A DNA stretch of 64,000 nucleotides from Echinarachnius parma (lineage: Eukaryota > Echinodermata > Echinoidea > Clypeasteroida > Echinarachniidae). The translations under genes and the position numbers were made by a program. Position 1 is the stretch's first letter, and the number at the start of each line of letters is the position of its first letter. The stretch spans positions 1-64,000 of the forward strand of contig JBAMJV010002966.1 in assembly GCA_037951105.1 (NCBI GenBank), read 5' to 3'. Below the pieces are notes generated by a model. It was not told the origin of the DNA. It saw nothing but the letters and a program-made list of their open reading frames with translations, and ran no database searches. Of the stretch, positions 5,186 through 50,930 are shown in pieces.

Positions 5186-5628
5186 AGACCCCGTTTACAG
5201 TGCAGGGCCGGGCCGAGCCGCGGCTCGGCCCTGCTTAAATTGCTGTACTCGGCCCCCCACCCCCCCCCCCCCCCCCCCCCAATTTTGTGCGTTTACAGTG
5301 GCGGTCTCGGCCCGGCCGCCCTTTCAATATCTTGTCGTAGTGGCGCTCTGCATGTAAACAAACCATTATTTTTGGGGCGCGCTAGGGGTCACAGAACAAA
5401 GGCGCGTTATTTGCAATGAATTGTTTTCGCAATTTGGTACAGCATTTGGCCACATGCGTGCGTTTACAGTGAGAAAAAGCGGGGCCGAGACGCGTCTCGG
5501 CCGCGGCCGAGACTACCTCCAGAGCGGGGCCAAATTATGCGCGGCCACTTTTGCCCCCGCATTTGGCCTTTTGAGCGTTTACAGTGACGCGTCTCGGCCC
5601 GGCCTTTTTTTCACTGTAAACTGGGTCT
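5186..5628. mobile_element. GC-rich non-autonomous element with internally repeated terminal motif
   Basis: The ends are AGACCCCGTTTACAGTG and its inverted partner CACTGTAAACTGGGTCT. The terminal word GTTTACAGTG recurs inside at about 5288, 5462 and 5576. Subterminal CpG-rich palindromes such as GAGCCGCGGCTC and GAGACGCGTCTC flank these. A C-homopolymer occupies about 5258-5280. It has no coding capacity; the target-site duplication is ambiguous. Confidence 0.65.
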
Positions 5629-5629
5629 A

Positions 5630-6286
5630 TATATGTTTCAGTAGGCCTATGCTCAACGAATGCATATGTCGACCCTGAAGAAGATGACTGGTGCTCCTTC
5701 AATCATTATCATCAACTTATGCCTAGATATATGCATCATTAATTAATGGAACGGGTGCATTTGGAGTGAATAATTTAGTAAAGGAGTTTGTCTTTACCTA
5801 GACATTTAGGACTACGTAGTGCAGCTATATATGCTCCTTTATAGCCTGCATGGAGGCGTCAAATGGTCAAAATTATCTATAAAAGCGGGAGGCTGATTCA
5901 AGATCCTAAAAAGGCCCTTGGTATGATACTATGATGGACGATTTACCATGCGCTAGGAAGTTTGTTAGGCCTATAGCTATACGCGCTCTATGTCTTCTGA
6001 AATGCGGTGAGCGTCGATCCTCGCGCACGGGACTGAAAATTTGCATAAGGCGCTATATTGGAAGGATTCTTCAAACTGATATAGGTGCGCTATTGCTAGT
6101 ACTAGGGAACGACTGTTATATTCTTGGTTATTATCGTTGATTACATCATTTTCAGCACACATTAAATAAAACATGATAATAATGAATGATATAGACACAT
6201 TTGGCTTAATGTCGGGTCATCATTTTTTTTTTTTTTTTGCCAAACGATTGGGGGGGGGGGGCGATGGGGGGGGGGGGGGGCACGTG
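5630..6286. other. Region without recognised gene
   Basis: No coding or RNA feature was identified. A run of T at 6222-6238 and two G runs at 6250-6280 mark another fragment of G-rich repeat just before the next inverted repeat. Confidence 0.4.
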
Positions 6287-6708
6287 AATATTACTAATAA
6301 AATATAACGTTAACATCCAACATACATATTCAGAGTATGTCATAGTGAATATCAAAAAAGAAAGACACCTTAACGCCCCCTTCATATTACCTTCAGGGGT
6401 CATCTCATCTCACCACTTTACCCACTGGTTGTGCGTATAATGAAAGATCCAACCCATCCTCTGTTTAGTATTTTTAATTTCAATAGATCCGGTGTTCGCC
6501 TTTGTGTCCCACGCACCAAGAGAGTTCGCTTTAGAAATTCGTTTGTCCCCGACTCTATCCATATGTTCAAAAGTAAAGTGGTGAGATGAGATGACCACTG
6601 AAGGTAATATGAAGGGGGCGTTAAGGTGTCTTTCTTTTTTGATATTCACTATGACATACTCTGAATATGTATGTTGGATGTTAACGTTATATTTTATTAG
6701 TAATATTC
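6287..6708. repeat. Inverted repeat enclosing an L2 LINE tail
   Basis: The arms 6287-6419 and 6578-6708 are near-exact reverse complements, about 130 bases each, sharing words such as CTTCATATTACCTTCAG against CTGAAGGTAATATGAAG. The enclosed 158 bases are not palindromic and carry the C-terminus of an L2-type LINE. Confidence 0.75.
6436..6590 (+). pseudogene. L2-type LINE C-terminal fragment
   Basis: The + strand frame reads RIMKDPTHPLFSIF, then PRTKRVRFRNSFVPDSI, matching the family tail pattern HPL-(F) ... R-x-P-(x)-R-F-(K/R)-N-S-F-(I/V)-P-x-(S/A)-I seen at the end of L2/CR1-group reverse transcriptases. The frame closes at the TGA in GTGAGATGA. Only this tail survives, between two arms of an inverted repeat. 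Confidence 0.65.
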
Positions 6709-6862
6709 ATTGGAAGAATATGTACAACTCAAACATTAATTATACAGTAGTTTTGAATGCTTTTGATAGACAACTGAATTGAAGTATATACTTGAAGTAT
6801 AAATGTGCAAGATGTGAATTATAATAAGCTCTCGTTGTGTATACATGCTTTATTAGACCCCT

Positions 6863-8220
6863 GGGCCGGTATTCAATTCCGTACTAAGAATAAGTAAGAA
6901 ATTTACTAAGTAAATTGATAAGCTAAGAACTTTACTTATCTCATATTCAAATCGAATTTTAGACTTTTACTTACTATATATATATATATAGACAAAATCT
7001 AAGTAAAATACTTGTGACGTCACAATGGTTTGTAAATTAGTGCTGATGGTATCCGTGAACCATTTTGTGCGACGCTTGTCTATGGGAATTCACGTGTTAA
7101 AACAAAATCGCAAAACAATTTTGTGCGACGCTTGCCAATGGGAATTATGTTGTTAAAACAGAATTGCATGATCATAACAGCAATCTTGATTGAAACGTTA
7201 CATTATTACGGTATTATAGGGAGCAGTCAAAGCTTCAAAATGAGCAGAAAAACATTGAAGTCGAGGAATAAAATCACTGCTTGCTTATGGTTTTCTTGAG
7301 TTTATATGAGGTATGCAAGGTCGATTGTCGGATCCATAATATGCAGGCCTATTGATCTAGGCTATGCTCTTGTGAAAGTTTGATCGTTTGAAGCTCCGAA
7401 AGTGGAGACAGTTATTGATTTTTGACATAATAATTATGATCCATATGATGCCTCCAGTCCAATAACGAACCAGCAAACTATTTTCAAACATGGAATATAC
7501 TTGTATGATAAAGAAGTATTAAAAATAACTTACCCGCCGGCTGTGACCATTATTTAATGCCCCATAAATATATCACTTGCAATGATTGAAGAATATGTCC
7601 ACCAAAATGGCATGGATTACAATAGTAGATCACATTATATCCACAACATCCATACAAGCAAACAAAAGATGAACAAATCAAGCAGATAATATTCGGTAAC
7701 AGCTTGAATTTTTTTCTTTTCCCTGTAAGATTGCAATTCACTATTTTTGTTCTTAATAGTGCACTGTACACAGCCTTTTGGCACGTAGATCTGTGATTTC
7801 ATGACTCTTAATGCGCCTGAATTGAAGCGCACAGTTCGCTTTGTCCTTTGATAATGCGCTGATCATCTTAAATTATAACTTTCAGGGGAAGGGGGTTGCA
7901 TTTCTATTTCGGAGCATTTAATGTCGTTTCACCACCATATTAAATACCCGTTTCCCACTAATTCCAGCGTTAAGCTATGCTTAAGTGTCCTAATGATTTT
8001 CCTAAGTTTAAGCAAATTACTTAGTCACAATGAGGGATTTGAATAGCAACCTTGCTTAAGTAAAGTACTTAGGTAATTAACTAAGACAAAATCATACTTT
8101 ACTTAGTAAAATACTTAGCCGATGAATTGAATCTCAATTTGGGCTAAGTAATTTACTTAAGCCAAATACTAAGTAAATTGCCTAAATTTTGTACTTAAGT
8201 ACGGAATTGAATACGGGCCC
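6863..8220. mobile_element. 1.36-kb non-autonomous DNA transposon, copy 1
   Basis: The ends GGGCCGGTATTCAATTCCG and CGGAATTGAATACGGGCCC are inverted copies. Each terminal 150-250 bases is built from iterated, largely palindromic words such as CTAAGTAAATTACTTAG and its variants. The centre is AT-rich, with no believable protein. Two more copies follow immediately. Confidence 0.75.
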
Positions 8221-8319
8221 TGTTACATAATTACTCACTCAGTACGCCCCCACTTTGCTTTTCGCACTTTAAATTCATTATGTCCCCATAAACATACACT
8301 CATTATACCCATTATGTAT
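8221..8319. repeat. Flanking segment duplicated at 10808-10906
   Basis: About 95 bases starting TGTTACATAATTACTCAC follow element copy 1 and occur again, almost unchanged, after copy 3. They are therefore part of a duplicated block (element plus flank), not of the element itself. Confidence 0.8.
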
Positions 8320-9635
8320 TTGGCTTAAGTAAATTACTTAGCCAAAATTGAGATTCAATTCATCGGCTAAATATTTTACTAAGTAAAGTATGATTTTGTC
8401 TTAGTTAATTACCTAAGTACTTTACTTAAGCAAGGTTGCTATTCAAATCCCTCATTGTGACTAAGTAATTTGCTTAAACTTTGGAAAATCATTAGGACAC
8501 TTAAGCATAGCTTAACGCTGCAATTAGTGGGAAACGGGTATTTGATATGGTGGTGAAACGACATTAAATGCTCCAAAATAGAAATGCAACCCCCTTCCCC
8601 TGAAAGTTATAATTTAAGATGATATAATCGCATTATGAAAGCGAAATGTGCGCATGCAGTGCGCTTCAATTCAGGCGCATTAAGAGTCGTTTTGCGCATG
8701 AAATCACAGATCTACGCGCCAAAAGGATGTGTACAGTGCACTATTATTAAAGAACAAAAATAGTGAATGGCAATCATACAGGGAAAAGAAAAAAATCAAG
8801 CTGTTACCGAATATTATCTGCTTGATTTGTTCATCTTTTTTTTACTTGTATGGATGTTGTGGATATAATGTGATCTACTATTGTAGTAATCCATGCCATT
8901 TTGATGGACATATTCTTCAAACATTGCAAGTGATATATTTATGGGACATTAATAATGGTCACAGCCGGTGGGTAAGTTATTTTTAATACTTCTTTATCAT
9001 ACAAGTACCTTTATTCCATGTTTGAAAATAGTTTGCTGGTTCGTTATTGGACCGGAGGCATCATATGTATCATATTATGTCAAAAATCAATAACTGTCTC
9101 CACTTTCGGAGCTTCAAACGATCAAACTACCACAAAAGCATAGCCTATAGATCAATAGGCCTGCATATTATGGATCCGACAATCGACATGGCATACCTCA
9201 TACTCAAGAAAACGATAAGCAAGCAGTGATTTTATTCCTCGACTTTGATGTTTTTCTGCTCATTTTGAAGCCTTGACTGCTCCATTATAATACCGTAATA
9301 ACGTAACGTTTCACTTTCAATCAAGATTGCTGTTATGATCATGCAATTCTGTTTTAACACATGAATTCCCATTGACAAGCGTCGCACAAAATTGGTTTGC
9401 GATTTTGTTTTAACACGTGAATTCCCATAGACAAGCGTCGCACAAAATGGTTCGCGGATACCATCAGTACTAATTTACAAACCATTGTGACTTCACAAGT
9501 ATTTTACTTAGATTTTGTCTTATGTAAGTAAAAGTCTAAAATGCGATTTGAATACGAGATAAGTAAAGTTCTTAGCTTAGCAATTTACTTAGTAAATTTC
9601 TTACTTATTCTAAGTACGGTATTGAATACCGGCCC
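8320..9635. mobile_element. 1.36-kb non-autonomous transposon, copy 2 (inverted)
   Basis: This is the reverse complement of copy 1, lacking roughly the outer 55 bases at its left end and ending normally at ...GAATACCGGCCC. It shares the central blocks of copy 1 (for example the segment around TGGATGTTGTGGATATAATG at 8850) in opposite orientation. Confidence 0.8.
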
Positions 9636-9636
9636 T

Positions 9637-10807
9637 GGGCCGGTATTCACGTGTTAAAATCATGTTTTAAAACAAAATCGCAAACCAATTTTGTGCGACG
9701 CTTGTCAATGGGAATTCATGTGTTAAAACAGAATTGCATGATCATAACAGCAATCTTGATTGAAACGTTACGTTATTACGGTATTATAAGGCGGAGCAGT
9801 CAAAGCTTCAACATGAGCAGAAAAACATCAAAGTCGAGGAATAAAAGCACTGCTTGCTTATGGTTTTCTTGAGTTTATATGGGGTATGCCATGTCGATTG
9901 TCGGATCCATAATCTGCAGGACTAATTGATCTAGGCTATGCTCTTGTGAAAGTTGATCGTTTGAAGCTCCGAAAGTGGAGACAGTTATTGATTTTGTACA
10001 TAATATGATCCATAATGATGCCTCTGACCAGTCCAATAACGAACCAGCAAACTATGTTCAAACATGGAATATACTTGTATGATAAAGAAGAATTAACAAT
10101 AACTTACCCGCCGGCTGTGACCATTATTTAATGTCCCATAAATATATCACTTGCAATGTTTGAAGAATATGTCCACCAAAATGGCATGGATTACAATAGT
10201 AGATCACATTATATCCACAACATCCATACAAGCAAACAAAAGATGAACAAATCAAGCAGATAATATTCGGTAACAGCTTGAATTTTTTTCTTTTCCCTGT
10301 AAGATTGCAATTCACTATTTTTGTTCTTAATAGTGCACTGTACACAGCCTTTTGGCGCGTATAAATCTGTGATTTCATGAGCGCAACGACTCTTAACGCG
10401 CCTGAATTGAAGCGCACTACGCACAGTTTGCTTTGATAATGCGCTTATATCATCTTAAATTATAACTTTCAGGGGAAGGGGGTTGCATTTCTATTTCGGA
10501 GCATTTAATGTCGTTTCACCACCATATTAAATACCCGTTTCCCACTAATTCCAGCGTTAAGCTATGCTTAAGTGTCCTAATAATTTTCCTAAGTTTAAGC
10601 AAATTACTTAGTCACAATGAGGGATTTGAATAGCAACCTTGCTTAAGTAAAGTACTTAGGTAATTAACTAAGACAAAATCATACTTTACTTAGTAAAATA
10701 CTTAGCCGATGAATTGAATCTCAATTTTGGCTAAGTAATTTACTTAAGCCAAATACTAAGTAAATTGCTTACATTTTGTACTTAAGTACGGAATTGAATA
10801 CGGGCCC
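9637..10807. mobile_element. 1.36-kb non-autonomous transposon, copy 3
   Basis: This copy has the same orientation as copy 1. It starts GGGCCGGTATTC one base after copy 2 and then jumps to the internal word ACGTGTTAAAA, so about 200 bases of the left terminal region are missing. The right end is intact and is followed by the same 95-base flank as copy 1. Confidence 0.8.
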
Positions 10808-10906
10808 TGTTACATAATTACTCACTCAGTACGCCCCCACTTTGCTTTTCGCACTTTAAATTCATTATGTCCCCATAAACATACACTCGTTATATCCATT
10901 ATGTAA

Positions 10907-11236
10907 TTGCTATCGATGCTCACTTTGAATATCAGGAAATCAGTGTGATTTATAATGTTTATTATTAATTATGTATGAACATTGAAATGAAACATAGTTA
11001 GATAACGTTAATACACAGTTAGTATTTAAAGTTAATCGACTGTTTTGAATTTTGATTCTGAGTAATGTGTAAATTTAAGTGTGTTTAAGTGTGTTTAATT
11101 GATTTATGTTTGTTATAATATTGTTACACTGTTGTGCTGTTATACATGCAGTACTGTTATATATACTCTGTAACCAAGTGAAAAAAGAATTTCCATGAAT
11201 TTGGACAATACAATCAATCAATCAATCAATCAATCA
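10907..11236 (+). mobile_element. 3' untranslated end of an L2-like LINE with CAAT microsatellite tail
   Basis: An AT-rich stretch ends in ATTTCCATGAATTTGGACAA followed by a (CAAT)n run at about 11204-11236. L2/CR1-group LINEs end in short tandem repeats rather than poly-A (established). No coding part is left upstream because the duplicated transposon block abuts it. Confidence 0.5.
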
Positions 11237-12838: not shown

Positions 12839-13020
12839 TACCAACAGTCTTTTTCAGGACTATCCCAACAGTCCTTTATAGGACTACCAACAGTCCTTTC
12901 TAGGACTATCAACAGTCCTTTCTAGGACTACCAACAGTTCTTTTTAGAACTCTCCTAGAAAGAATACCAACAGTTCTTTTCAGAACTACACCAACAGTCC
13001 TTTTCAGGACTTACCAATCC
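12839..13020. repeat. AGTCC-(T/TA)-GGACT palindromic minisatellite, array 1
   Basis: Units of about 22 bases have the form CAACAGTCCTTTCTAGGACT, each containing the dyad AGTCC...GGACT. Some units carry the co-varying variant AGTTC...GAACT, so the dyad is kept although the sequence changed. A second, longer array lies at 15767-16143. Confidence 0.85.
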
Positions 13021-13089
13021 ACCCATCTCACATGGTGTACCCGTAAACCACACGTATTACATACACCACCATGGAAACCGATACTTACA

Positions 13090-13240
13090 AGCAACATTTA
13101 AGGAATTTGATTGTTAAAACATACTCAAGTAAAAGACTATGTGAAATAAGTCAAAATCTATTCAAACAGGGTAACTGTCATGAAAGTACAACTGATAGGA
13201 AAAGATGAAATGTACTTCATACAAGCTTATGCATCCACAA
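13090..13240 (+). pseudogene. RTE-type LINE endonuclease piece 1 (copy A)
   Basis: The frame at about 13171-13237 reads NRVTVMKVQLIGKDEMYF, then IQAYAST, the endonuclease region of RTE-type LINEs just before the YAP(T)SD motif. The protein text continues exactly at 19402 (SDYDDAIVEEFYKDM), beyond the inserted 3-kb element. Repeated at 16213-16364 by the tandem duplication. Confidence 0.7.
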
Positions 13241-15766
13241 TACCCAGGGAGCAAAGGGGGTTTTACAGACATGGAATGTAATAAAAGGTTGGGGCCCATA
13301 ATTGTCTTCTAGGACCTTGTAGAAGCACAACCTATGTGCACAACCCCGCGAACTAGCTACTGGAAGTCCACAAAACACATATGAAGGATTTTACCCCTAC
13401 TGTACGTTAAAAGCGCCTTAAATCCTTATGGTTCATGAATGTTCTACTCTGTTATTTTAACGATTACACCCATACGACTGCTGCTATCATCGCATTTCTT
13501 TGGAAATGTCTTCGATAGATATTTGTGCATCTTTTGATACCGAATTGTGCCTTTTTATATCTATGGTTTATATGTCACGTGTCTTTATATGTCACGTGTC
13601 AGACATAGAAAATGAAATTTCACATACTCGTATGGACAAAAATGTATGTAAAATGTTTCAGGTTATAGAATGACACATTTTATATGTGTAAAAACATATA
13701 CTAAATGTTGAATGGCATTTAATATGATTACAAAACAATACACTGGCAAAACAAATGATAAAACAATACAAAACAAAAGAATTTGAAACAAGGAACACAC
13801 ATAAGAATAATAATTGTAATAATTATAATGACAATGAGCATATGAGGTGGCTGCTATAGCGAACATTCTGTATATTTGACGCTCGCGGCGCATCATTATT
13901 TTTACTCCCAGAGTCATTGGATACATACTGTAATAGATCCAGCACACAAAGTACACATTTCCACTTCCTGTGGAGTCTTCCAGCCTGGCACCTTGTATGC
14001 AAATACAGTGCTAAAGAATCACGTTCCATCCTTCCGGGCACTCTCTCGTTCCGAACTCGGGACCTCATGATTGGAAGGCATGTGTCCTTCCAATCTTTAT
14101 TACAAGCAAAATCATTATAAAATATTTCAGGCCTTTGTAAATATTTTCAGGTCTATAAAGATACATAAAATAACCATAAAATCAATAATGTTTACAATGA
14201 TTATAAACCATATTTGCTTTCTTTTTTATTGTGTATAATATTTCAAACAAATCAATTTTCTTGTTATGCATTGTCGCATTTAACATTACAAACCTGCATA
14301 CAATTTGGTTGCGATTGGCACTCAATATTATAATAGGGGGCTTGGGATAAGAGGGTGTATCAACATCGTTTGGAAATACAAAGTAAAAAATAACAGGGTA
14401 TGAAAGCTGACATATTTTTGGGATGAGTCTTTTCCCACTGACTAGATGACATTCTTGTAAAGCTTAACAACTACCATTCATACGAAGAAGAAAAGCCAAG
14501 AAGTACACTTATATTCCCACATTGTATTCAAGGAAGGGGGTTAGTATCGTTATCAAGGCTAGCCTGATGAATATCCTTAAAGAGGGAACAAGCTACAAAG
14601 TGACACATTAAACAACCATCCTCTTGCGATATATATCACATAAAGAAATAAGTTCCTTTTAGATGCCAATATAATATACTCTATGGTATTTTCACAAATG
14701 TGAAATACACTAGACTATAATTTTTGGATATGTTGATTTATACTACTAAATAATTTGGCTAAATGATATCCCTCTAAAACTAAACAGCATACATGTATGT
14801 ACAGTACATCATCCGCTAAATAGTAACAATGATGTGCTCGACAGTCATTTAGTTCTTGAACCATAGATGTTTTGCAGTTAACTACTAACAGGAAACGCTC
14901 TGAGGTTCCTCAGTGAGAACAGTGTTTGAATAAACCGCTTAAATCTGCCCTTAATTCAACTTGACAAAGTGATCAATTAATAGAAGGGAATTTTCATGTC
15001 CGAGTCCTAGTCTTTAATCCACAAATCTGAAGACTGGTTTCTTGATTATCTGTGCTTTCGGGTATTAAGTGGCTCTCAGAGTTGTCACCAATGTCAATGA
15101 CGACATAATTACATGTGTTTGTATAATGAAGGATCTTAACTCGGGTAGTACCTGTAATTTAGTAGCCATCACCCGAATTTGAAATTAGTGTGACACTTTT
15201 GACCATTACATTATGTGATGGGTAATGCACTTATTACAAAATACGGCTAGATATTCGTGGTCATTGGCAAGTATATAAGGCAATTTTTAATGAATCCTGG
15301 AGACACATGCAGTCACCTAATGTAACCATAGCTGTTTAATCCATCATCCTGACCAGTTCGAGGATTCAAATCTTTGAAAGCTGCAATATACAAGCTATTA
15401 AAGATCTTTTCTCAATAAAGGATATGCTTCTCCGTAGGAGCTGTAATCACCATCAATGACAAGAATGCAATGTCACGGATTCAAACAGTATAATTATGTT
15501 GTTCGAAATTGTAAGGATTCTTTCATGATAGATATTCTATATTTAGGCCTATTACATATTTGCATTCCATAGTCTATATATATTTGCTATATCTACATTC
15601 TGTGCATTTCATTATCAAGATGTGAAATAAATAAATGCGTTTACTTCTATTACAATGATTTAGTAAAAACATATACCAAAGATACACTACCAAGAACTCA
15701 TATTATTATGTATTTTATTGTTTTTAATACGTTATGTATTCTATTGTTTTATTACTTTTTTTATAG
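13241..15766. mobile_element. 3.0-kb DNA transposon X, duplicated left part
   Basis: It starts TACCCAGGGAGCAAA after CAA, like the complete copy at 16365, but stops at 15766 where the second minisatellite array begins. It is therefore a by-product of the tandem duplication rather than a separate insertion. Short open frames inside (for example 13876-14120) occur identically in both copies but match no family and overlap each other on both strands. Confidence 0.75.
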
Positions 15767-16143
15767 GACTTTCTAGGACTATCAACAGTCCTTTCTAGGA
15801 CTACCAACTGTCCTTTTTAGGACTCTCCTAGAAAGAATACCAACAGTCCTTTTCAGGACTATCCCAACAGTCCTTTCTAGGACTAAAAACAGTCCTTTCT
15901 AGGACTACCAATTGTCCTTTTTAGGACTCTCCTAGAAAGAATACCAACAGTCTTTTTCAGGACTATCCCAACAGTCCTTTATAGGACTACCAACAGTCCT
16001 TTCTAGGACTATCAACAGTCCTTTCTAGGACTACCAACAGTTCTTTTTAGAACTCTCCTAGAAAGAATACCAACAGTTCTTTTCAGAACTACACCAACAG
16101 TCCTTTCTAGGACTACCATAGTCCTTTTCAGGACTTACCAATC
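15767..16143. repeat. AGTCC...GGACT palindromic minisatellite, array 2
   Basis: These are the same 22-base units as at 12839, with about 16 units and a higher-order pattern ending ...CTCCTAGAAAGAATA. It sits at the junction between duplication copies A and B, which suggests that recombination between arrays produced the duplication. Confidence 0.85.
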
Positions 16144-18888
16144 CACCCATCTCACATGGTGTACCCGTAAACCACACGTATTACATACACCACCATGGAA
16201 ACCGATACTTACAAGCAACATTTAAGGAATTTGATTGTTAAAACATACTCAAGTTAAAGACTATGTGAAATAAGTCAAAATCTATTCAAACAGGGTAACT
16301 GTCATGAAAGTACAACTGATAGGAAAAGATGTAATGTACTTCATACAAGCTTATGCATCCACAATACCCAGGGAGCAAAGGGGGTTTTACAGACATGGAA
16401 TGTTATAAAAGGTTGGGGCCCATAATTGTCTTCTAGGACCTTGTAGAAGCACAACCTATGTGCACAACCTCGCGAACTAGCTACTGGAAGTCCACAAAAC
16501 ACATATGAAGGATGTTACCCCTACTGTACGTTAAAAGCGCCTTAAATCCTTAGGGTTCATGAATGTTCTACTCTGTTATTTTAACGATTACACCCATACG
16601 ACTGCTGCTATCATCGCATTTCTTTGGAAATGTCTTCGATAGATATTTGTGCATCTTTTGATACCGAATTGTGCCTTTTTATATCTATGGTTTATATGTC
16701 ACGTGTCTTTATATGTCACGTGTCAGACATAGAAAATGAAATTTCACATACTCGTATGGACAAAAATGTATGTAAAATGTTTCAGGTTATAGAATGACAC
16801 ATTTTATATGTGTAAAAACATATACTAAATGTTGAATGGCATTAATATGATTACAAAACAATACACTGGCAAAACAAATGATAAAACAATACAAAACAAA
16901 AGAATTTGAAACAAGGAACACACATAAGAATAATAATTGTAATAATTATAATGACAATGAGCATATGAGGTGGCTGCTATAGCGAACATTCTGTATATTT
17001 GACGCTCGCGGCGCATCATTATTTTTACTCCCAGAGTCATTGGATACATACTGTAATAGATCCAGCACACAAAGTACACATTTCCACTTCCTGTGGAGTC
17101 TTCCAGCCTGGCACCTTGTATGCAAATACAGTGCTAAAGAATCACGTTCCATCCTTCCGGGCACTCTCTCGTTCCGAACTCGGGACCTCATGATTGGAAG
17201 GCATGTGTCCTTCCAATCTTTATTACAAGCAAAATCATTATAAAATATTTCAGGCCTTTGTAAATATTTTCAGGTCTATAAAGATACATAAAATAACCAT
17301 AAAATCAATAATGTTTACAATGATTATAAACCATATTTGCTTTCTTTTTTATTGTGTATAATATTTCAAACAAATCAATTTTCTTGTTATGCATTGTCGC
17401 ATTTAACATTACAAACCTGCATACAATTTGGTTGCGATTGGCACTCAATATTATAATAGGGGGCTTGGGATAAGAGGGTGTATCAACATCGTTTGGAAAT
17501 ACAAAGTAAAAAATAACAGGGTATGAAAGCTGACATATTTTTGGGATGAGTCTTTTCCCACTGACTAGATGACATTCTTGTAAAGCTTAACAACTACCAT
17601 TCATACGAAGAAGAAAAGCCAAGAAGTACACTTATATTCCCACATTGTATTCAAGGAAGGGGGTTAGTATCGTTATCAAGGCTAGCCTGATGAATATCCT
17701 TAAAGAGGGAACAAGCTACAAAGTGACACATTAAACAACCATCCTCTTGCGATATATATCACATAAAGAAATAAGTTCCTTTTAGATGCCAATATAATAT
17801 ACTCTATGGTATTTTCACAAATGTGAAATACACTAGACTATAATTTTTGGATATGTTGATTTATACTACTAAATAATTTGGCTAAATGATATCCCTCTAA
17901 AACTAAACAGCATACATGTATGTACAGTACATCATCCGCTAAATAGTAACAATGATGTGCTCGACAGTCATTTAGTTTTTGAACCATAGATGTTTTGCAG
18001 TTAACTACTAACAGGAAACGCTCTGAGGTTCCTCAGTGAGAACAGTGTTTGAATAAACCGCTTAAATCTGCCCTTAATTCAACTTGACAAAGTGATCAAT
18101 TAATAGAAGGGAATTTTCATGTCCGAGTCCTAGTCTTTAATCCACAAATCTGAAGACTGGTTTCTTGATTATCTGTGGTTTCGGGTATTAAGTGGCTCTC
18201 AGAGTTGTCACCAATGTCAATGACGACATAATTACATGTGTTTGTATAATGAAGGATCTTAACTCGGGTAGTACCTGTAATTTAGTAGCCATCACCCGAA
18301 TTTGAAATTAGTGTGACACTTTTGACCATTACATTATGTGATGGGTAATGCACTTATTACAAAATACGGCTAGATATTCGTGGTCATTGGCAAGTATATA
18401 AGGCAATTTTTAATGAATCCTGGAGACACATGCAGTCACCTAATGTAACCATAGCTGTTTAATCCATCATCCTGACCAGTTCGAGGATTCAAATCTTTGA
18501 AAGCTGCAATATACAAGCTATTAAAGATCTTTTCTCAATAAAGGATATGCTTCTCCGTAGGAGCTGTAATCACCATCAATGACAAGAATGCAATGTCACG
18601 GATTCAAACAGTATAATTATGTTGTTCGAAATTGTAAGGGTTCTTTCATGATAGATATTCTATATTTAGGCCTATTACATATTTGCATTCCATAGTCTAT
18701 ATATATTTGCTATATCTACATTCTGTGCATTTCATTATCAAGATGTGAAATAAATAAATGCGTTTACTTCTATTACAATGATTTAGTAAAAACATATACC
18801 AAAGATACACTACCAAGAACTCATATTATTATGTATTTTATTGTTTTTAATACGTTATGTATTCTATTGTTTTATTACTTTTTTTATA
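15942..18888. repeat. Large tandem duplication, copy B
   Basis: The partner of 12839-15766. This copy continues without a break into the right end of transposon X, so it is the original and copy A the derived one. Confidence 0.9.
16213..16364 (+). pseudogene. RTE-type LINE endonuclease piece 1 (copy B)
   Basis: Same sequence as 13090-13240 apart from a few substitutions, for example ATGTAATG for ATGAAATG near 16330. It ends with the target CAA at 16362-16364, directly before transposon X. Confidence 0.7.
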
Positions 18889-20697: not shown

Positions 20698-21439
20698 AGG
20701 GAGCGTCGAGTATTGGTATTTTCCGAAGTGCCCCCCAAAAATAATTTGCAACGGATTTGGTTGATTTCAATTCCATATGAAAGATCATCGACAAAAAACA
20801 TGGGAAATAATAATAATTCCCATTCAAATGCCCTAATTGTTGTGAAATTTGCTTTCAAAATATTATATAAAAGTGATTGACGTCCGGACATCACTTTTGA
20901 CACTAACTCAAGAGAACGCTAGCGCGAAGCGCTAGCGTTCTAGGTTCTCCTGATACGGGACTGAAAATGTATATTGTTTGTGCACGCTAATTGTGCTTAA
21001 AACTTTACATATGATACGGTACTTACCACCGATTCACTCTCCAATATGTGATCCAACTATCGGATGGATTAAAATTATGATTTTTTCCTTCATTCCGCTA
21101 AAAATCAGTGATTTATGCGCCTCCTCGACTTCTCTCCGTGTGTTAGCGCGCGACTGATAAAGCGCCGTTCCCCCCCAGATAACAATGCTACGTTGGCCCA
21201 ACGTAGTCTATAGTCGGCACCGTCGCGGTTGGCAAAACAACGTTAAGTCAACGTTGGCCTAAGGTAAATTTACAACCACATTGTTGCAGTCGGCGAGCTG
21301 ACGTTAAAACGACGTTAAGCCAACGTCGTATGTTGACTGTTGGCAAACTGATTGGCAAATGTACGTTGAAACAACGTTGGGTGATAGTTGGACGAAAAAT
21401 CATATTTCTATGGTCGAAAACAAACGTTGGGCCAACGTT

Positions 21440-22540
21440 TCGCCTACTACGACATTGTGTCGATGAGTGGCGTTGGATATTGGTTGGCTAGTTGACGTCG
21501 TTCTAACGTTTGGCAAACAACCAAATTTCGACGGGAGGCAAGCCAACGTTATACCAACGTTTCTTCACTACGACATTGTGTCAATGACTTGCGTTGGATA
21601 TTGGTTGGCTTGTGAACGTCAGACCAACGTTAAATACACAACCACATTTCGACGGTATGATAGTCAACGTGGGGCCAACGTTTCGCCGACTACAACATTC
21701 GGTCAATGAGTGGCGTTAGATATTGGTTGGCTAGTTGACGTCAAACCAACGTTTGACAAACAACCACATTACGACGGTAGACAAGCCAACGTTAGGCCAA
21801 CGTTTCGCCTACTACAACATTCGGTCAATGAGCGACGTTGGATATTGGTTGGCTAGTTGACGTCAAACCAACCTTTAACAAACAACCACATTTTGACGGT
21901 GGGCAAGCCAACGTTAGGCCAATGTTTCGCCTACTACAACATTCGGTCAATGAGCGACGTTGGGCTAGCTGACGTCAAACCAACCTTTAACAAACAACCA
22001 CATTTCGACGGTGTGCAAGCCAACGTAAGGCCAACGTTTCGCCTACTACCACATTCGGTCAATGAGCGACGTTGGATATTGGTTGGCTAGCTGACGTCAA
22101 ACCAACCTTTAACAAACAACCACATTTCGACGGTGGGCAAGCCAACGTTAGGCCAACGTTTCGCCTACTACAACATTCGGTCAATGGGCGACGTTGGATA
22201 TTGGTTGGCTAGTTGACGTCAAACAACCTATAACAAACAACCACATTTCGACGGTAGGCAAGCCAACATTAGACCAACGTTTCGCCTACTACAACATTCG
22301 GTCAATGAGCGACGTTGGATATTGGTTGGCTAGTTGACGTCAAACCAACCTTTAACAAACAACCACATTTTGACGGTGGGCAAGCCAACGTTAGGCCAAC
22401 GTTTCGCCTACTACAACATTCGGTCAATGAGCGACGTTGGATATTGGTTGGCTAGTTGACGTCAAACCAACCTTTTACAAACAACCACATTTCGCCGGTA
22501 GGCAAGCCAACGTTACGCCAACGTTTCACTTACTATGTAG
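21440..22540. repeat. 120-base satellite-like array inside N1
   Basis: About nine units, with GACGTCAAAC(C)AAC recurring near 21737, 21858, 21971, 22092, 22216, 22336 and 22456. Each unit includes GCCAACGTTAGGCCAACGTT and ends in ATTCGGTCAATGAGCGACG. The unit at 21971 is shortened by about 8 bases. Neighbouring units are 85-95% alike by eye, so the array was homogenised or recently amplified. Confidence 0.85.
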
Positions 22541-22711
22541 TGTCGTTTTGGTTGGTTGAATGGGATTTGGCTAGCGATGATAGCAACATAATTATGATAC
22601 AAATGATGAATACTTATTATTAATCATAACATTTTCGGTCTTTCAAATTCCGAATAAGTGCATACACATAAGCTTTCGTGAATAGACACCCGAGTACATT
22701 AATTACGGGCA

Positions 22712-23102
22712 CTACCCAGCAAACACAAAACGTTTACTAAACGTTTTTATTAGGTCACGTAGGTCTTCGTCTTTAATCAAAGTTTACAAAAACCTTTACA
22801 AAACGTTTGTATTAGGTCACGTAGATCTTCGTCTTTAATCAACGTTTAAAAAACATTCTTAAAACGTCTCCAGCATCCGACAGGTTTTTCTGCTGGTCCT
22901 TGCACTTGAAAGCAATTACATGAAAGGTTTTTTATTGTTTTTTGGTAACGTGCAACGTTTTAAAAAGGTCCATTTGGCACGTTCTAAGAACGTTTTCAAT
23001 CTTTCACAAATACACGTTTTAAAACGTTTTCACATAACGTCCAAATACCAACTTTGAACCTGTTTAGAACGTTCAGAAAACGTTCAATTGTTAGTTGGGT
23101 AG
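22712..23102. mobile_element. AAAACGTTTT-rich small element nested in N1
   Basis: The ends CTACCCAGCAAACA and TGTTAGTTGGGTAG are imperfect inverted copies. The interior is full of AAACGTTT palindromes and a 60-base direct repeat (TTAGGTCACGTAG-TCTTCGTCTTTAATC at about 22750 and 22813). Elements starting ACCCAGCAAACACAAAACG are widespread in aquatic animal genomes. No coding capacity. Confidence 0.55.
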
Positions 23103-23639
23103 CATTCACGAATGTGCAGCCAAATAATCGTTTGATGAAATTATAATTTATAATGAAAATATAAATAAGATTTTAATAATGTTTCGATTTATATAGCGTT
23201 TAATACAGTTATTATTACCCCGGTCATCGGGGGGTTATTGGACACACTCACAATCAATCCACACTTGCACTTTCTGATTTCTTGGGAGCAAGGCATGCTG
23301 GTCAATAGGGCGCAGTCCACGATATACAATAGGCCGCTTCTGTAATGTATGCAAATATTATGCGTGTAATATTAAGTAAAATTACATACACGTTCCACTC
23401 CTACAGGTAAATGGTAAAACGCAGCAATATTGGATTAATTGTCTTGCTTAATTAAGGACAAACGAGAACGCGAACATTTTGCCACACCACGTCTACAAAT
23501 GTTCACGGTTCAAGTTATGTTATTATATTATGAACACCACTACACCAGTATGGTTTTAGGGCAGGCTGATGAATGCGAAGTTTATAGCATTGGTGATTTA
23601 ATTCATCAACTATGTACGAATCAGTGACAAAAATGCTGG

Positions 23640-24040
23640 AAGTGTTTGTTACAAACAGAATCTTCTTAGATTTCGCAAAGGACTACAACACTTTTCCCTA
23701 TAGTGCATGTTCATATAAATTCGCATAGACTTTGTACACATCCCACTCGATGCCCCTGGTCATGGGGTATTTATCCGATATCACACTAACTTATGATGTT
23801 TTTTCTTCTTGATTACCGATTACATTATGGAGTTTCAAAATGATCTGTAGTGGTACCAGCGTTTTTCCTCATTTGTATAAACGATTTCCAAACCTACGTT
23901 ATTATTTCCATTTGGGATTGTTTGCAGATGATTTTAGCCGGTTTCTCACTTTTTAGAGAGTATTTACACATAGATTTAAAAGTAATGAGGTCAAATATTG
24001 ACGCATTTCATATAGGTGTAAAGAAAATATATTATACCAA
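23640..24040 (+). pseudogene. LINE reverse transcriptase fragment
   Basis: Frames read IFLDFAKDYNTFPYS (motif A, LDFAKAFD-like), PAFFLICINDF (the GP-LF-LYINDL region) and LFADDFSRFL (motif C, FADD). The order and spacing fit a CR1/Jockey-type reverse transcriptase with several shifts. It sits inside N1, so either N1 captured it or the LINE inserted later. Confidence 0.65.
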
Positions 24041-24102
24041 ATTCATGCGTTTTAGAAATCGTTACCGACAAAACAGTTTTTGGTATCAAGGATTCGTATT
24101 AA

Positions 24103-24477
24103 AGGATAGTTGAGTTAGTTTTGGTATATAGAGGCCGTTACACAATATTTGTATGAGATAATCAAACACGGAGTGTCGAGTTTGAAAGAGCATGCAATTG
24201 TAATGACAGAATAAACTTAATTTGATCAAAATTGTTTCAGAAAAGCCTAAGATATCCATAAACCTAACATTTTAATAATTGTAGGGAATAGACAATATAA
24301 CTTTGAATGGGCCGCTAAAAAATTTCAAAATTGCTTCTTCTTTTTAGAAAGGTTGTGTTATTAATTTCGAGCATGGTGGAGTAAGTTATAACTGTCTGTT
24401 TGTAATGTAATGATGCATGGTTTAGTTACTAAAGCTCACCAAAGCTGAACTCGCTTTATCAAGACTCAACTATCCTT
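24103..24477. mobile_element. TTAA family A copy inside N1
   Basis: Ends AGGATAGTTGAG and CTCAACTATCCT with TTAA at 24099-24102 and 24478-24481. At 375 bases it is shorter than the 549-base copy at 402. It is a later insertion into N1. Confidence 0.75.
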
Positions 24478-24796
24478 TTAATGAAAACACAAGTGGATTG
24501 CACTTCATTTGTAGTAATATAGATACAAATATTACGAAAAAAAGATTGAACCACTGCCATATATTTCACGGGGGAAATTGATTAACAAAATGCAAGATAG
24601 CTAAATCAAGACAGATATAGGGAAACAGTCCATTTCATACATTGGGCAGTAATTTTTAGATGAATCTCCATGCGACTTAAAATGTACAATGTCACGATAT
24701 GGATGTCTTAAATTGTACAATAATTCAAATATATTTTAATTATGTTCTACCAACAATGTATGAAAACGTTTTTGAAACATTTTGGATTGTTGTAAT

Positions 24797-25650
24797 ATTA
24801 TCGATAATACAATGTGCAGTATATACTTGTATTGCTTATATAGGTGTTCAAGGGCTAGTTTTGACTTATATACTATGCAAGTCTATCCTGTTTAATAAAT
24901 GACGGGAAATTGTGAAATATTGTACATTATATGATTTTGTAAACATTTGTGTATTGCTATCGGGGTTCATGATCGATTATAAACGATCATAAATAGTGAA
25001 CAAAAAAATTCCTATTTTTGCTATTATTTGTATTGAAAACAGTGTTATCATATCCTTGTTTTCTATATAATTTGTTGTAACATTATCGATAATATAATGT
25101 GCAGTATATACTTGTATTGCTTATATAGTTGCTCAAGGGCTAGTTTTGACTAATATACTATGCAATGTCTATCCTTTTTAATAAATGACGGAAAATTGTG
25201 AAATATTGTACATTATATTATGATGTTGTTGAATTGGTAAATTAATACAATTAAATTAAATTTACGAAATTAACAAAATATTGGGGGTGCAAAGCCCCTT
25301 TGCACAGCCCCCTCTTTATTCACTTTGATACACCTATTAATTAGTGATTTATGATCGGTAAAGGTTCGTTCCGCAATCGATCCCAATGCGTCGTAAGTGG
25401 GCCAACAATAGGTGATTTCAAGTATGGTCTTTAAGGCCGGTGTAAGTGTTTATTACACACAAACGCCGGTTTGATAAACACTAACACCAACCCTAAACAC
25501 CATACTTGAAATCACCCATTGGGCCAATGCAGAATCGCTATCGGGGTTCATGATCGATTATAAACGATCATAATAGTGCACAGAAAAAAAATTGCTATTT
25601 TTGCTATTATTTGTATTAAAAACAGTGTTAACTTGTCCTTGTTTTTCTAT
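24797..25650. repeat. Dispersed direct repeat with internal palindrome
   Basis: The block TATCGATAATA-AATGTGCAG at 24797-24940 recurs at 25084-25222. The block GCTATCGGGGTTCATGATCG at 24955-25075 recurs at 25532-25650. Together they form a tandem duplication of about 285 bases whose second copy holds a 310-base insert. The second block includes the dyad ATGATCG-ATTATAAA-CGATCAT. Confidence 0.8.
25411..25517. mobile_element. 107-base hairpin MITE
   Basis: GGTGATTTCAAGTATGGT and ACCATACTTGAAATCACC form perfect ends, and the arms continue with AAACACTAACACC against GGTGTAAGTGTTT. It is a miniature foldback lying inside the insert of the preceding duplication. A related word occurs at about 19875. 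Confidence 0.7.
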
Positions 25651-25945
25651 ATAATTTATAAAACTATAAATGACACCCGAATATAGTGTTATGAATGATG
25701 ATTCAAAGGCTGATTATTTTAGAATCTACTCTCAATCTACTCTCGGCAGTTACTAACTATTAACAAATGTACATAGTATGTATAGGATATATATACTAAG
25801 CCGATGGCATAGTAAATTGTTAGGACGATAGGATAGGTTCTGATAGGAATAGGATTAGGATTAGGTGTAGGATAAGTATGAAATGTTTGCGTGACGGTAT
25901 GGTAGACTTTGTAACACCATGCAACTTATCAATCATTTTTTTTTG

Positions 25946-26435
25946 TAATGGTTGGCTCAAGGTTGGCTCAAGGTTGGCTCATGGTTGTCTCAAGGTTGGC
26001 TCAAGGTTGGCCCGAAGTCGTATTCACGTTGGGGTTTAGTCGGCTCAATGTTGGCTTGACGTCAGAAATAGCCAAATAAAAGGTTGGGCAAACGTTGGCG
26101 CAACATCGTAGCAAGACGTTGGCTTATGGGGGTTGGGCCAACGAGGGCCCAGCGGCACAAATGACGTGGGCCAAACGTCACGTTTTAACGTTGGCCCGAC
26201 ATTGACTTATATAGTCGTATTAACGTTGGGGTTTAGTCGGCTCAACGTCAGAAATAGCAAAATAAATGGTTGGGCAAACGTTGGCTCAACATTGGCAATT
26301 GACGTTGGCGTATGGGGGTTGGGCCAACGAGGGCCCAGCGGCAAGAATGACGTGGGCTAGACGTCACGTTTTGACGTTGGCCCAACATGACCGCCTACAT
26401 TGGGCCAACGATGGGCCAACGTAGCATTGTTATCT
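25946..26435. repeat. Short-period minisatellite and iterons at right end of N1
   Basis: A 13-base unit (GGTTGGCTCAAG) repeats about six times at 25952-26010. Then come two longer units with ACGTTGG...GGCCAACGAGGGCCCAGCGGC at about 26130 and 26320. This is the counterpart of the left array, using the inverted forms of the same words. Confidence 0.75.
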
Positions 26436-26898
26436 GGGCCGTTCGCATCGGCGGCCATCGCGATCATCGAAATCTGTTCGGAATCGCGCTCACACACGGA
26501 GAAAAGTCGAGGAGGCGCATAAATATTTAGCGGAATGGGGGAAAAAAATCATAATTTTAATCCACCCGATGGTTGGATCACATATTGGAGAATGAATGGG
26601 TGGTAAGTACCGTATCATATGTATAATTTTAAGCACAATTAGCGTGCACAAACAATATTCATTTCAGTCCCATATCAGGAGGACCTAGAACGCTAGCGCT
26701 TCGCGCTAGCGTTCTCTAGAGTTATAATTTGACTCTTGAGTCGTAACGGCTCTTTTTGAATGATAACAGGGGTTTTGCTTTGTCGTTTGTAATTGTGTAT
26801 ACTTTTCGAGCATTGTGGAGTTTTAACTATTAGTTTGTACCGTAATGGTGCAGATTTTGGTTACTAAAGTTAAGTTTGACCAATACTCAACTATCCCT

Positions 26899-43503: not shown

Positions 43504-43993
43504 AGGGCCCGTTACACATTCACGGTCCCAACACGGATGACCACGGATTGACGGTCTGTTTGTTGTTATTTGGTTTAATGGCAATCAGTCAAATGTGACT
43601 AGTGTTGCCCATATTGTTGTCAACCGGGGTACTCCCAGTTGTGTCCGGGATGCTCCGTGTTGCCTCCGGCGTGATCCGTGTTGCACCCGGCGTGATCCGT
43701 GTTGCCTCCGGCGTGATGCTTGGGCGCACCAGGGGAAAATTAAACCTGCACAATTTTCACCCCGGACGTCCCCGGATGAAATCAGTCCGTGTTGGTACCG
43801 TGTTGGCACCGTGGACGTCCGTGTTGGCACCGTGGACGTCCGTGTTGGCACCGTGGACGTCCGTGTTGGTTCCGTGTTGGCACCGTAGACGTCCGTGTAG
43901 CCAGCCACCGGGAGCTCCGTGTTGAGACCGGCGTTCTATTGTTCTATTGTTCAGCTCATCCGTGTTGGCACCGTGAATGTGTAACAGGCCCTT
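43504..43993. mobile_element. 490-base element with internal copies of its terminal repeat
   Basis: Inverted ends of about 36 bases begin AGGGCCCGTTACACATTC and AGGGCCTGTTACACATTC (inverted). The terminal word CCGTGTTGGCACCGTG is repeated inside as a 21-base minisatellite (43793-43880), and related words CCGTGTTG-C-CCGGCGTGAT repeat at 43655-43720. Overlapping Arg/Cys/Thr-rich frames on both strands are by-products. It lies 100 bases before an LRR exon. Confidence 0.8.

Positions 43994-45578: not shown

Positions 45579-45582
<4 letters not shown>

Positions 45583-45612
<30 letters not shown>
45583..45612. repeat. (AC)n microsatellite
   Basis: About 15 AC units in the intron just after the LRR exon. 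Confidence 0.9.
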
Positions 45613-45613
<1 letters not shown>

Positions 45614-46262: not shown

Positions 46263-47078
46263 CGATTTATTGAATTTGTCAGGGGCGTCGATCCTGGGGG
46301 AGGGGAGGGGGCGGTCGCCCCCCCCCCCCCCCCCAATGAAAATATTGGGGAGGCGAACATATCGTTTCGCTCCCCCAATAATTCCGAAAATGAGGAAGAA
46401 AAAAATAGAGTGATATAATGCCAAAGAAGGGAAAGACACATTTATCAATAATTAATATTCAAAATAGCAATTTTTTTGGTTTGAAAAGGACTGTTAATCT
46501 CTTTTTTTGCCGCGCGCTTCGCGCGCATACAGTTTCTCATATTGCAAGTTTCATTTCGGTTGCAGGAACTCACCTTTCGAAATGTGTTCGAAATGTGTTG
46601 GGCAGTTTAATTTCTCAAACGCACACTTCAAACGAAGTTTATCAAATCCTCATCTATAGCACACCGTCACAGAAAATGAAATAATATGAAATAATATATC
46701 TTCAGTTAATTCGGTCCATATGCGCTGAACGCAAATCAAATTGGAATATCATGTCCCCCCACATTTGAAAGTGGAGGAGGTTGTCCCCCTCTCTTTGTCC
46801 TTATGTATGTTTGGTTCCATACTTATAAAATTCATATTACGTACAATTTCTGTCTCAGGTGTGCACCAAATCGCACAATTTCACGCACAAAAGTACAAAA
46901 GCTCCTTACTGTGGGAGGGGGACACCCCCTCCCACACCCTCCCCCGCTCGGTTGCTTCGCTTCCTCGCAATGTCTCCCTTCCACTTTGGAGAGGTTGTTG
47001 ACGCCCTTACTTAGTTTCATTGGAGCTCAATGCCCTAGACTATATCGATGGCTCTATAGTATACAGGATCACGATCTA
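46263..47078. repeat. G-rich interspersed repeat, inverted copy of 4205-4970
   Basis: It runs from CAGGGGCGTCGATCCTGGGG through a C run (46319-46335) to TCATTGGAGCTCAATGCCCT and CTATAGTATACAGGATCACG, matching the other copy in reverse over its length. It includes GGGGGGAC-CC/CCTCCCACA boxes. It lies in the large LRR-gene intron. Confidence 0.75.
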
Positions 47079-48062: not shown

Positions 48063-48479
48063 ATTAAGAAGACATAATATATTGTTGGAATCACTGATTT
48101 CCAGTCAGATTTTTCAGATTTGTATGATATAAAAACAAATCCTATCAACACTTTCACAATAATAACATCGAACCGTTACTAATGTTGGTTAATTATTGAA
48201 AGCGCTTAAGCAAGATAAGTTTTATGACAGATTTTGTAATATCAATATTATTTTGATGAACTATTTAAAATATTTGTATATTTCAGCCATTACCGATGAC
48301 CCTATGGCAGAGGATTCACGACGCATTCCACCTGAGAGTCAGTCTCACCATCCCAGGTTCAGTAGCATGGATCCTCTTTCCATGAACGGTCTTACCAGGT
48401 GGGGGACTTCCATATGATTGCTACCTGACTCGACGATCGACTGCCTTCCACGCTGTGAGATATTTACAGTGATACTACT

Positions 48480-48955
48480 ATGAGCTGCCAGAATTGCAAG
48501 ACTGTCACAATCAATGCTGCTGAAGAACCGCCCCACGCTCAGGACCTTACCTGCTGAAGCCAGACCGGTGCGAGAGGGTCAACAACAAGCAGACAACAAT
48601 GGCAGCAATACGCACCAACACCAAGGCGCGCCAGTTCGACGAGGGTGATGCAGTCTGGGTACACGACTTCGCCGAGGCAGCAACAAATGAGGGTCGGGAA
48701 CTATCACTTTGAGATCTGGGTCCAATCTAGTGTGGAGACGTCATCTTGACCAAATGACATCGGGAACATCACATCATCCGAGCCTAAGACACCACCACCA
48801 GATGCTCCAGTTGAGGGATCTGATGCACCAGTAATACCAATGGAAACAACTGTCACAACCCCTGCAACATCAATTACAGAGTCAGGGGAAGCCACTTAAA
48901 CGGTGATTTGCAGTTCGGAAAGACACCAAGAACCCCAGATAGATTAAACTTGTAG
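48480..48955 (+). pseudogene. Ty3/Gypsy relic (integrase C-terminal part)
   Basis: Words characteristic of the end of a Gypsy polyprotein are readable in order: FDEGDAVWVHDF (integrase C-terminal domain), VWRRHLDQM and TPDRLNL just before a stop. No long terminal repeats, reverse transcriptase or gag were recognised around it. It is a broken, old fragment in the LRR-gene intron. Confidence 0.6.
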
Positions 48956-48984
48956 ATTAAAGGAAGACATAATTCAACAAAAGT

Positions 48985-49175
48985 AGCAGTCGAGCTGAAT
49001 AACCTCCTATGACGACTAATGACCAGGGTAGTCCACCCCTGTTTCAGTAGTATCAATGACTATAGTGAATAATTTGTAGAATACGGTATAGCAAGTCATC
49101 AGGCAAAAAGGGGCAGAATAATCTCCCTGTGATGACTACGGACAAAGGTATTCCACCCCTGTGTTATTACCATTA
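48985..49175. repeat. Pair of related 50-base direct repeats
   Basis: AACCTCCTATGACGACTAATG...CCACCCCTGTTTCAG at 49001 and AATCTCCCTGTGATGACTACG...CCACCCCTGTGTTAT at 49119 are diverged copies about 118 bases apart. Confidence 0.5.
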
Positions 49176-50180
49176 GGGAAGGGTAAAGTAAGTAAGTAAA
49201 TGTAACATAAATAATAAAGAAATAAAATGGTAAATGGTATTGAATGCATTATACATTCATATTAGGACTTACCGGATTGTAATCATTTTTTTGAACTGGA
49301 AAGACAGTTTTGATAGTGGACTCGGGACTGTAGGGATTTCTGTTGAATGATTGTATTAAATGGAATGAAAAGTAATTATACAATATTATACGTGTTTGAT
49401 GGTTCATCTGCACCCGCCACATCGTGTGACGTGCTTAATCTATATCTGTGGAGAAGCTATGGGGGGGGGGGGGGGTGGGGGTCGTCACCTGCCTCCTTCC
49501 CCAATAGTTCGACAAAACGAAAAATAGTGCAATTTAAATAAACTGAGCTTTTTATTCTCAACTAGTTTATTATGGGATTTCATACTTCGCTTATCTTATG
49601 TCTTTTGTGTGCATTAGATTATTGTATTATAATACACTAGATTTTATATCACATTATTATGCCTGTTACAAAAATGTATATTTCAGTAGCATACTGGAGT
49701 AGGCTACACTTGTTTTGATATTTGTTTTACAATATAATAAAAGAAAAGATGTGCCCAGTGGAAAATGTGTTTTGACCCTATACAGTGGTTATCTGACTAA
49801 TGCTAATGATAAATAGAACTATGTGTTCTTTGTTTTTCTACAAGCACTGCATGAATGAAAACAACAAGACAAAATCAGTACACACATTATTTGTAAAGAT
49901 ATATGATTCCATTATTCATCAAACGTTAATTGTTATTTTACTCTGTTGTTTATTGTATGTTTGTTTTGTTGAAGAATATACATTGTTCACAACATGCAAA
50001 TTTTCTCCTGTGTTTTATTTGTATTTATATTGTCCGTATAAAGGTATGTACACTTTGCCCTTGCAGTTAACCGTTCTTGGATCCCCCATATTGCCAATTT
50101 ATTGTCAGTTACCACACTTTGTGGTGTATTCAATGCTGAATAAAATGTACATCAAGCTGAGTAAAAAAAAAGAGGAAAGA
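49176..50180. other. AT-rich intron stretch, poly-G at 49459-49476
   Basis: No recognised domain. The 133-codon frame at 49800-50201 is Leu/Tyr/Cys-rich, has no family match I know and ends inside the next repeat. GGGGGTGGGGGTCGTCACC near 49470 is another edge of the G-rich interspersed repeat. Confidence 0.4.
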
Positions 50181-50930
50181 TTACCCAGTAGTTTCTTTTG
50201 ATAATTGTACCCATTTTGTTTTTGCCCAACGTGGCCCAGGATCCATATGAACCCTCATGCTGGGTAAAAGTTGGGTAAAGGTTGGTAGAACAGGAGGTTG
50301 GGTAAATGTATGGGCAATGTCTAACTGGGCAATGGCATAGGGTAATGAATAATGACCAACCCTTTTGCCCAATTATTGCTTTTCCATTTTCTAGGTGGGT
50401 AATAATTGGGCAATATCCCTGGTCACTTCGTTGGGTAAATGATTTACCCAACTCAATTACCCAGTCTTCTTCCCAGGTGGGTAATAATTGGGCAATATTC
50501 CTGGTTAATTCGTTGGTAAATGATTTACCCAACTCAATTACCCAGTCTTTTTCCTAGGTAAGTAATTATTGGGCAATATTCCCGGTCAATTCATTGGGTA
50601 AATGATTTACCCAACTCAATTACCCAGTCTCTTTCCTAGGTGGGTAATAATTGGGCAATATTCCTGGTCAATTCGTTGGGTAAATGATTTGACCAACTCT
50701 CAATTACCAAGTCTTTATATTTATACCCAATAGTATGGTAATAGTTGGGTAAATTATGTTGGGTAATATGGTTGGGTAATCTTAAGATGGGTAATTAGAT
50801 GGGCATTTAAGTTTGCCCTAAAATGGGTAAATTACGAAAGGGGCAAAGTTAACCCCAAAGTTGGTCGGACTCATAACTATCCTCATGTTGGGTACATTTT
50901 TGGTAAAATATTGCCCAATATTTGTCAAGA
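50181..50930. mobile_element. GGGTAA/TTACCC iteron-rich element
   Basis: TTACCCAG at the left edge and many TTACCCAA/TTGGGTAA words throughout; the right part has GTTGGGTA words up to about 50895. An internal array (50397-50705) has four units of 82-83 bases, each with the palindrome TTGGGTAAATGATTTACCCAA. The exact ends are uncertain. No protein is encoded. Confidence 0.55.
50397..50705. repeat. 82-83-base tandem repeat, four units
   Basis: GGGTAATAATTGGGCAATAT begins units at 50397, 50479, 50560 and 50642. The units differ at only a few positions, and each centres on a 21-base palindrome. Confidence 0.9.

Follow-up and report, generated by a model that had tools for sequence, protein, structure and literature searches.

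Short DNA words iterated inside apparent transposons, and related to the ends of those same elements, mark the region from 5186 to 50930 of a 64,000-nucleotide stretch of the Echinarachnius parma genome (contig JBAMJV010002966.1; the whole stretch is hereafter referred to as the window). The locus raises the question of whether such an element multiplies its complete end or only a part of it, and of which process might account for the copies. A preliminary description of the window had proposed six elements (here E1 to E6) sharing one plan, in which the terminal word is repeated inside. This plan holds for E1-E5, which have terminal inverted repeats (TIRs) and carry their commonest internal 8-mer near both ends, but not for E6, where no inverted ends above chance were found. 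The repeated sequence is moreover the inner part of the end, beginning between base 5 and base 16, and not the tip. We interpret E1-E5 as probable non-autonomous DNA transposons of the cut-and-paste type, whose ends have two parts, a single tip and a multiplied putative docking word.

The features are as follows, with a strand assigned to the copies of E2 and none to the others.

E1, 5187-5627: 441 bp, inverted ends GACCC[C/A]GTTTACAGTG
E2 copy 1, 6863-8220, plus strand: ends GGGCC[G/C]GTATTCAATTCCGTACT, no target duplication
E2 copy 2, 8316-9635, minus strand: inverted copy without its outer end on the right (about 55 bp)
E2 copy 3, 9637-10807, plus strand: both tips kept, left word cluster deleted
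E3, 21174-26438: 5.3 kb, inverted ends CCCAGATAACAATGCTACGTTGGCCCA, 27 bp identical
Tandem array in E3, 21423-22535: about nine units of 122 bp, with ACGTTGG-type words in each unit, often paired 11 bp apart
E4, 22712-23102: 391 bp, nested in E3, imperfect ends CTACCCA[G/A]C[A/T]AACA, AAAACGTT words
E5, 43504-43992: 489 bp, inverted ends AGGGCC[C/T]GTTACACATTCACGGT[C/G]CCAACACGG, TTA target duplication
E6, 50181-50930: array of TTGGGTAA/TTGGGCAA words, including four 82-bp tandem units (50387-50716)

Single tips and iterated inner words

Counted within the named stretch of each word and then in the whole window, exact copies numbered 5 and 5 for GTTTACAGTG, 39 and 44 for ACGTTGG, 4 and 5 for AAACGTTT, and 11 and 11 for TTGGGTAA. 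At up to three mismatches, CCGTGTTGGCACCGTG gave 8 and 9 copies, and at up to four mismatches CTAAGTAAATTACTTAG, a near-palindrome most of whose sites are counted on both strands, gave 47 and 48. A second test, independent of the words chosen in the preliminary description, compared the commonest internal 8-mer of each stretch (at most one mismatch) with the highest count in six shuffles, yielding 9 versus 6 in E1, 16 versus 11 in E2, 59 versus 29 in E3, 14 versus 9 in E4, 15 versus 6 in E5 and 32 versus 8 in E6. This 8-mer lies at most 45 bp from both ends in all five TIR elements; in E1 it is the GC-rich GGCCGAGC rather than GTTTACAGTG, the two being adjacent.

To profile the ends, a 10-base window was slid along each terminal repeat of E1-E5, and internal matches at one mismatch or fewer were compared with those in 100 dinucleotide shuffles. 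The outermost 10-mer has no internal match at this threshold in any of the five elements, and allowing two mismatches gives counts of 1, 0, 5, 0 and 0, none outside the range of the shuffles. Only further in do the matches exceed all shuffles, starting at about base 5 in E1, base 8 in E2, base 14 in E3, bases 11-13 in E4 and bases 13-16 in E5. Eleven other palindromic or long-armed elements, identified by self-comparison of the window, served as controls; two were too short, and the ends of the nine that were profiled show no internal recurrence, except for one 10-mer each in controls C5 and C7 that lies just above 60 shuffles. The 8-mer test covered eight controls (all but C6, C10 and C11), and in five of them the count stays at or below the maximum of six shuffles. 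These controls are imperfect, since most are long palindromes, so that a word in one arm is counted a second time in the other.

E1 illustrates the arrangement most plainly. It is flanked by a TA target duplication (5185-5186 and 5628-5629) and contains GTTTACAGTG on the plus strand at 5193, 5291, 5462 and 5577 and on the minus strand at 5612, each copy being followed by a GC-rich GGCCGAG-type palindrome. The word is 100% identical in all five copies, amid 20-bp flanks that average 28% and 30% identity. TA target duplications are typical of Tc1/mariner-type elements, and that of E1 agrees with this pattern, TA alone assigning no superfamily.

The tips themselves were compared by their best match over 11 bases, with random-pair values that are uncorrected for the several end pairs involved. 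E3 and E4 have CCCAGxxAACA in common (9 of 11 bases match, 2.2e-4), E2 and E5 share GGGCCxGT (8 of 11, 1.9e-3), and the E1 tip, GACCC, matches those of E2 or E5 at 7 of 11 bases (0.011). The inner words differ between E2 and E5, and only an AACGTT core is common to those of E3 and E4. By sequence, the five tips fall into three classes, so that the earlier statement that the elements are not one family holds only in part.

Target duplications are TA in E1, TTA in E5 and imperfect in E3; E2 and E4 have none. Measured against the size of miniature inverted-repeat transposable elements (MITEs), E1, E4 and E5 are shorter than 500 bp, E2 measures 1.36 kb and E3 5.3 kb. The spacing of the words, noted post hoc, is often 10-11 bp in E3, E4 and E5, 12 bp in E2 and 13-14 bp in E6.

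Origin of the iterated words

The preliminary description had offered two explanations, the copying of end sequence by slippage during gap repair and the multiplication of transposase-binding sites. Taken broadly, the first would make the internal words remnants of full ends that had been duplicated through gap repair, through slippage or by nested insertion. Tandem whole TIRs occur in plant Mutator-like elements (MULEs; PMC3310237). In E1-E5, however, the tips are not copied, as they do not recur inside beyond chance in any of the five elements, and whole-end copying is accordingly highly improbable. Multiplied transposase-binding sites are the better fit, since copying is confined to the inner part of the end and the E1 word is identical amid flanks of low identity.

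In the mechanism that we favor, a short outer tip would be read at cleavage, and one would be kept at each end. The transposase, or a DNA-binding protein that partners it, would dock on the inner, family-specific word. Inside the elements this word may have been multiplied by local tandem duplication, for instance of 11-, 21- or 122-bp units, and the extra words could gather more transposase, so that word number would affect mobility and the additional copies would be kept by selection.

Neutral minisatellite growth offers a different account, in which slippage or unequal exchange amplified short end-proximal segments that have no function and that non-autonomous elements tolerate. E3 and E5 contain obvious tandem arrays, and array length can change fast in this window, where a 22-bp array differs in length between duplicates that are 98.9% identical. 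Constraint in the E3 array is marginal: mismatches per column average 0.43 in the words and 0.70 elsewhere, with a one-sided p of 0.048 in a post hoc comparison. The low divergence of the right word block of E2 is confounded by an equally conserved flank. Neutral growth does not readily explain dispersed words amid unrelated flanks, as seen in all five copies of the E1 word and in ten copies of the E3 word whose flanks are 29% and 40% identical (these ten were selected because their word is exact, and copies in the main array or in the second copy of a 186-bp repeat were set aside), nor why, in each of five separate elements, it is invariably the inner portion of the end that supplies the word. 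We regard neutral growth as somewhat unlikely.

It is also conceivable that the arrays are local satellite events and that some of the elements are not transposons. The inverted ends of E6 are not above those of shuffled sequence, E2 and E4 lack target duplications, and the same window holds a palindromic 22-bp array (12839-13018 and 15769-16142) without assigned ends. Against this stand the TA and TTA duplications of E1 and E5 and the 27 identical bases of the E3 inverted ends, which together make such an explanation very unlikely for the set.

Several observations weigh against two-part ends with selected docking words. The E2 profile is weak, with three matches at base 8 against a shuffle maximum of two and little until base 20. 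In a sample of five elements, recurrence that starts no earlier than base 5 could arise by chance if the repeated units begin anywhere in the end, and in the E3 array the word columns have only a marginal advantage in conservation. Controls C1 (10 versus 9), C3 (6 versus 5) and C4 (9 versus 6) also slightly exceed their shuffles in the 8-mer test, with the word near both ends. Regulation of Hsmar1 by competition for binding sites has been argued to resist selfish exploitation (PMC3687335), an argument at odds with any straightforward benefit of additional sites, and among the internal regions of mPing some promote and others inhibit transposition (PMC9921582).

Taken further, the proposed docking words could mean that at least three separate transposase systems in this genome each favored non-autonomous elements acting as transposase sponges, with one tip per end, multiplication confined to the docking word, and a heritable word number on which the parasites compete. 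We consider this extension doubtful.

Organization of the individual elements

The region 6863-10807, previously described as a single element, consists instead of three copies of E2 in the order plus, minus, plus, and the single-element interpretation was rejected. In copy 1 the core words (TACTTA/TAAGTA/CTTAAG) lie within about 140 bp of the left end and 245 bp of the right end, with none between, and number 19, whereas 300 shuffles average 1.7 and reach at most 8. Copies 2 and 3 have 15 and 14 core words, respectively, because the former lacks one outer end and the latter its left cluster; the deletion joint in copy 3 is consistent with ATTCA microhomology. Copies 1 and 3 have a right flank of 94 bp in common, with two differences, and therefore arose by local duplication and not by independent insertions. 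The copies show that word number can fall by deletion, and are not a demonstration of gain between insertions. Their right word block diverges at 2-4 of 206 bases and their middle at 31-35 of 665-676, a difference confounded by the flank of copies 1 and 3, which is equally little diverged (2 of 94). The overall layout (6863-10909) reads copy, flank, inverted copy, copy, flank, and looks like the product of a template-switch triplication.

E3 has an imperfect target duplication of 8-9 bp, the length that a Mutator-like or type 2 Foldback element would have, in which CCGTTC is common to both sides and is followed by C/G mismatches beside a run of C. Its ACGTTGG/CCAACGT words form a left cluster that extends to 22535 and a right cluster that begins at 25940. 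A six-frame search of the interior (22536-25949) for remnants of transposase-coding sequence revealed no Pfam family at the cut-off, the best match having E = 0.32; a non-autonomous element need not contain such a remnant. The element combines a terminal motif with subterminal tandem repeats, as Mutator-like or type 2 Foldback elements do, a likeness in plan that need not mean membership. E3 is closely flanked by inverted arms (20904-21150 and 26485-26724) that are 90% identical, an arrangement that would suit insertion of E3 into a foldback loop or, alternatively, one larger element of which these are the outer arms. P elements were considered as relatives of E3 and E4 and rejected, the tips being unlike that of zebrafish Pdre2 (PMC10983969) in a comparison by eye with this one published tip.

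The inner word of E5 is found in two 21-bp arrays (43654-43717 and 43785-43898). Between 43654 and 43898 the words are often 10 or 11 bp apart and the arrays have a 21-bp period, distances near one and two turns of DNA.

In E6, the best inverted pair of 16-mers has 12 matches, compared with 11-14 in 30 shuffles. Without inverted ends above chance its identity as a transposon is unsupported, and its array may be comparable to those in E1-E5.

Comparison with known systems

Maize Ac and En/Spm carry many subterminal sites. The ends of Muta1, a Mutator-like element of Aedes aegypti, consist of a 10-bp terminal motif and nine 12-bp subterminal repeats, whose number varies among non-autonomous derivatives, and in that species subterminal repeats of 9-15 bp occur in 10 of 12 Mutator-like families with long TIRs (PMC5225508). 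E1-E5 resemble Muta1 in joining a short terminal motif to subterminal tandem repeats. In Muta1, however, the repeats lie inside long TIRs and the target duplications are 8-9 bp (PMC5225508), whereas the words described here can fill a short element, and the duplications are TA in E1 and TTA in E5.

In Galileo, a member of the P-element superfamily, the DNase footprint of the THAP domain spans +63 to +80, outside a conserved tip of about 40 bp that is shared between families, and two further bound sites are located in inner repeats (PMC3688188); copies of subfamily F have none, two or three internal repeats (PMC3573991). The likeness extends to a conserved tip and a family-specific inner word repeated further in, binding being putative in our elements, but the Galileo TIRs measure 0.5-1.2 kb and hold few sites. 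In the P element the transposase sites lie inside 31-bp ends, the inner half of which is contacted by the helix-turn-helix domain (PMC7776569).

The Myb-like partner protein of Harbinger3_DR recognizes a 9-bp subterminal motif, and a 3-bp target duplication is typical of PIF/Harbinger elements (PMC9710019). E5 has such a duplication (TTA) and E2, which shares its tip, has none; the likeness of E5 to Harbinger3_DR is one of layout. Unlike in Harbinger3_DR, no transposase was found in E1-E5, as judged from open reading frames (ORFs) of at least 120 aa and from the Pfam search of the E3 interior.

Tandem-TIR MULEs likewise have duplicated end sequence, proposed in that case to raise recognition by the transposase, but they duplicate whole or nearly whole TIRs (PMC3310237), whereas the tips of E1-E5 are not duplicated. 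Tetris of Drosophila virilis, which is apparently non-autonomous and whose TIRs contain internal tandem repeats from which satellite DNA arose, is similar in its described features and differs in having units of about 220 bp instead of short words (PMC4079207). The available sections on coral MITEs describe conserved interiors and not iterated ends (PMC2872659), and the passages covered on Anopheles P MITEs mention no iterated word (PMC1562414). Since the same plan has been published for Muta1 and Galileo, E1-E5 appear to be new families built on an established plan, and the filling of a whole short element with words is a difference of degree from known systems.

Literature searches, mostly by topic and in one case by sequence, found no paper naming the E1-E6 sequences, which is weak evidence of absence; of 76 papers that contain at least one of six end strings, the 30 listed look unrelated, judged by title only.

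Genomic setting

The window also contains decayed retroelements: three of the five scanned ORFs reach the Pfam cut-off (Exo_endo_phos, zf-RVT and RNase H of reverse transcriptase), and the other two have RVT_1 matches below it. None of the 28 ORFs of at least 120 aa overlaps E1-E5, and a comparison of the window with Rfam gave no match at the gathering score. Searches with five end-derived patterns against viral contigs returned 0, 1, 0, 0 and 0 matches, the sole match being one GTTTACAGTG in the 6262 bases of contig L001, and one pattern gave no match in prokaryote genome contigs; these scans say little, because these collections are not animal DNA.

Other repeats are present. A tandem duplication of about 2.9-3.1 kb (12839-15765 and 15942-18888; 98.9% identical) is headed by the palindromic 22-bp array (ACCAACAGTCCTTTCTAGGACT), which spans about 12839-13018 in one copy and 15769-16142 in the other, and to which no ends were assigned. 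A 0.7-kb repeat occurs as two inverted copies 41 kb apart (4213-4917 and 46372-47073; 86% identical). A palindrome with 137-bp arms, 99% identical, adjoins a poly-G run (6285-6709), and a long-armed inverted repeat at 51924-52275 has CCTGGGGGGTGTTTCACAAAGATCCTAAG at both ends, with no recurrence of the ends inside.

Implications

The separation of a single tip from an iterated inner word would allow both the docking word and the cutting site of an element to be predicted from sequence alone, even where no transposase is known. If word number tracks copy number across the families of one genome, competition for transposase becomes directly testable.

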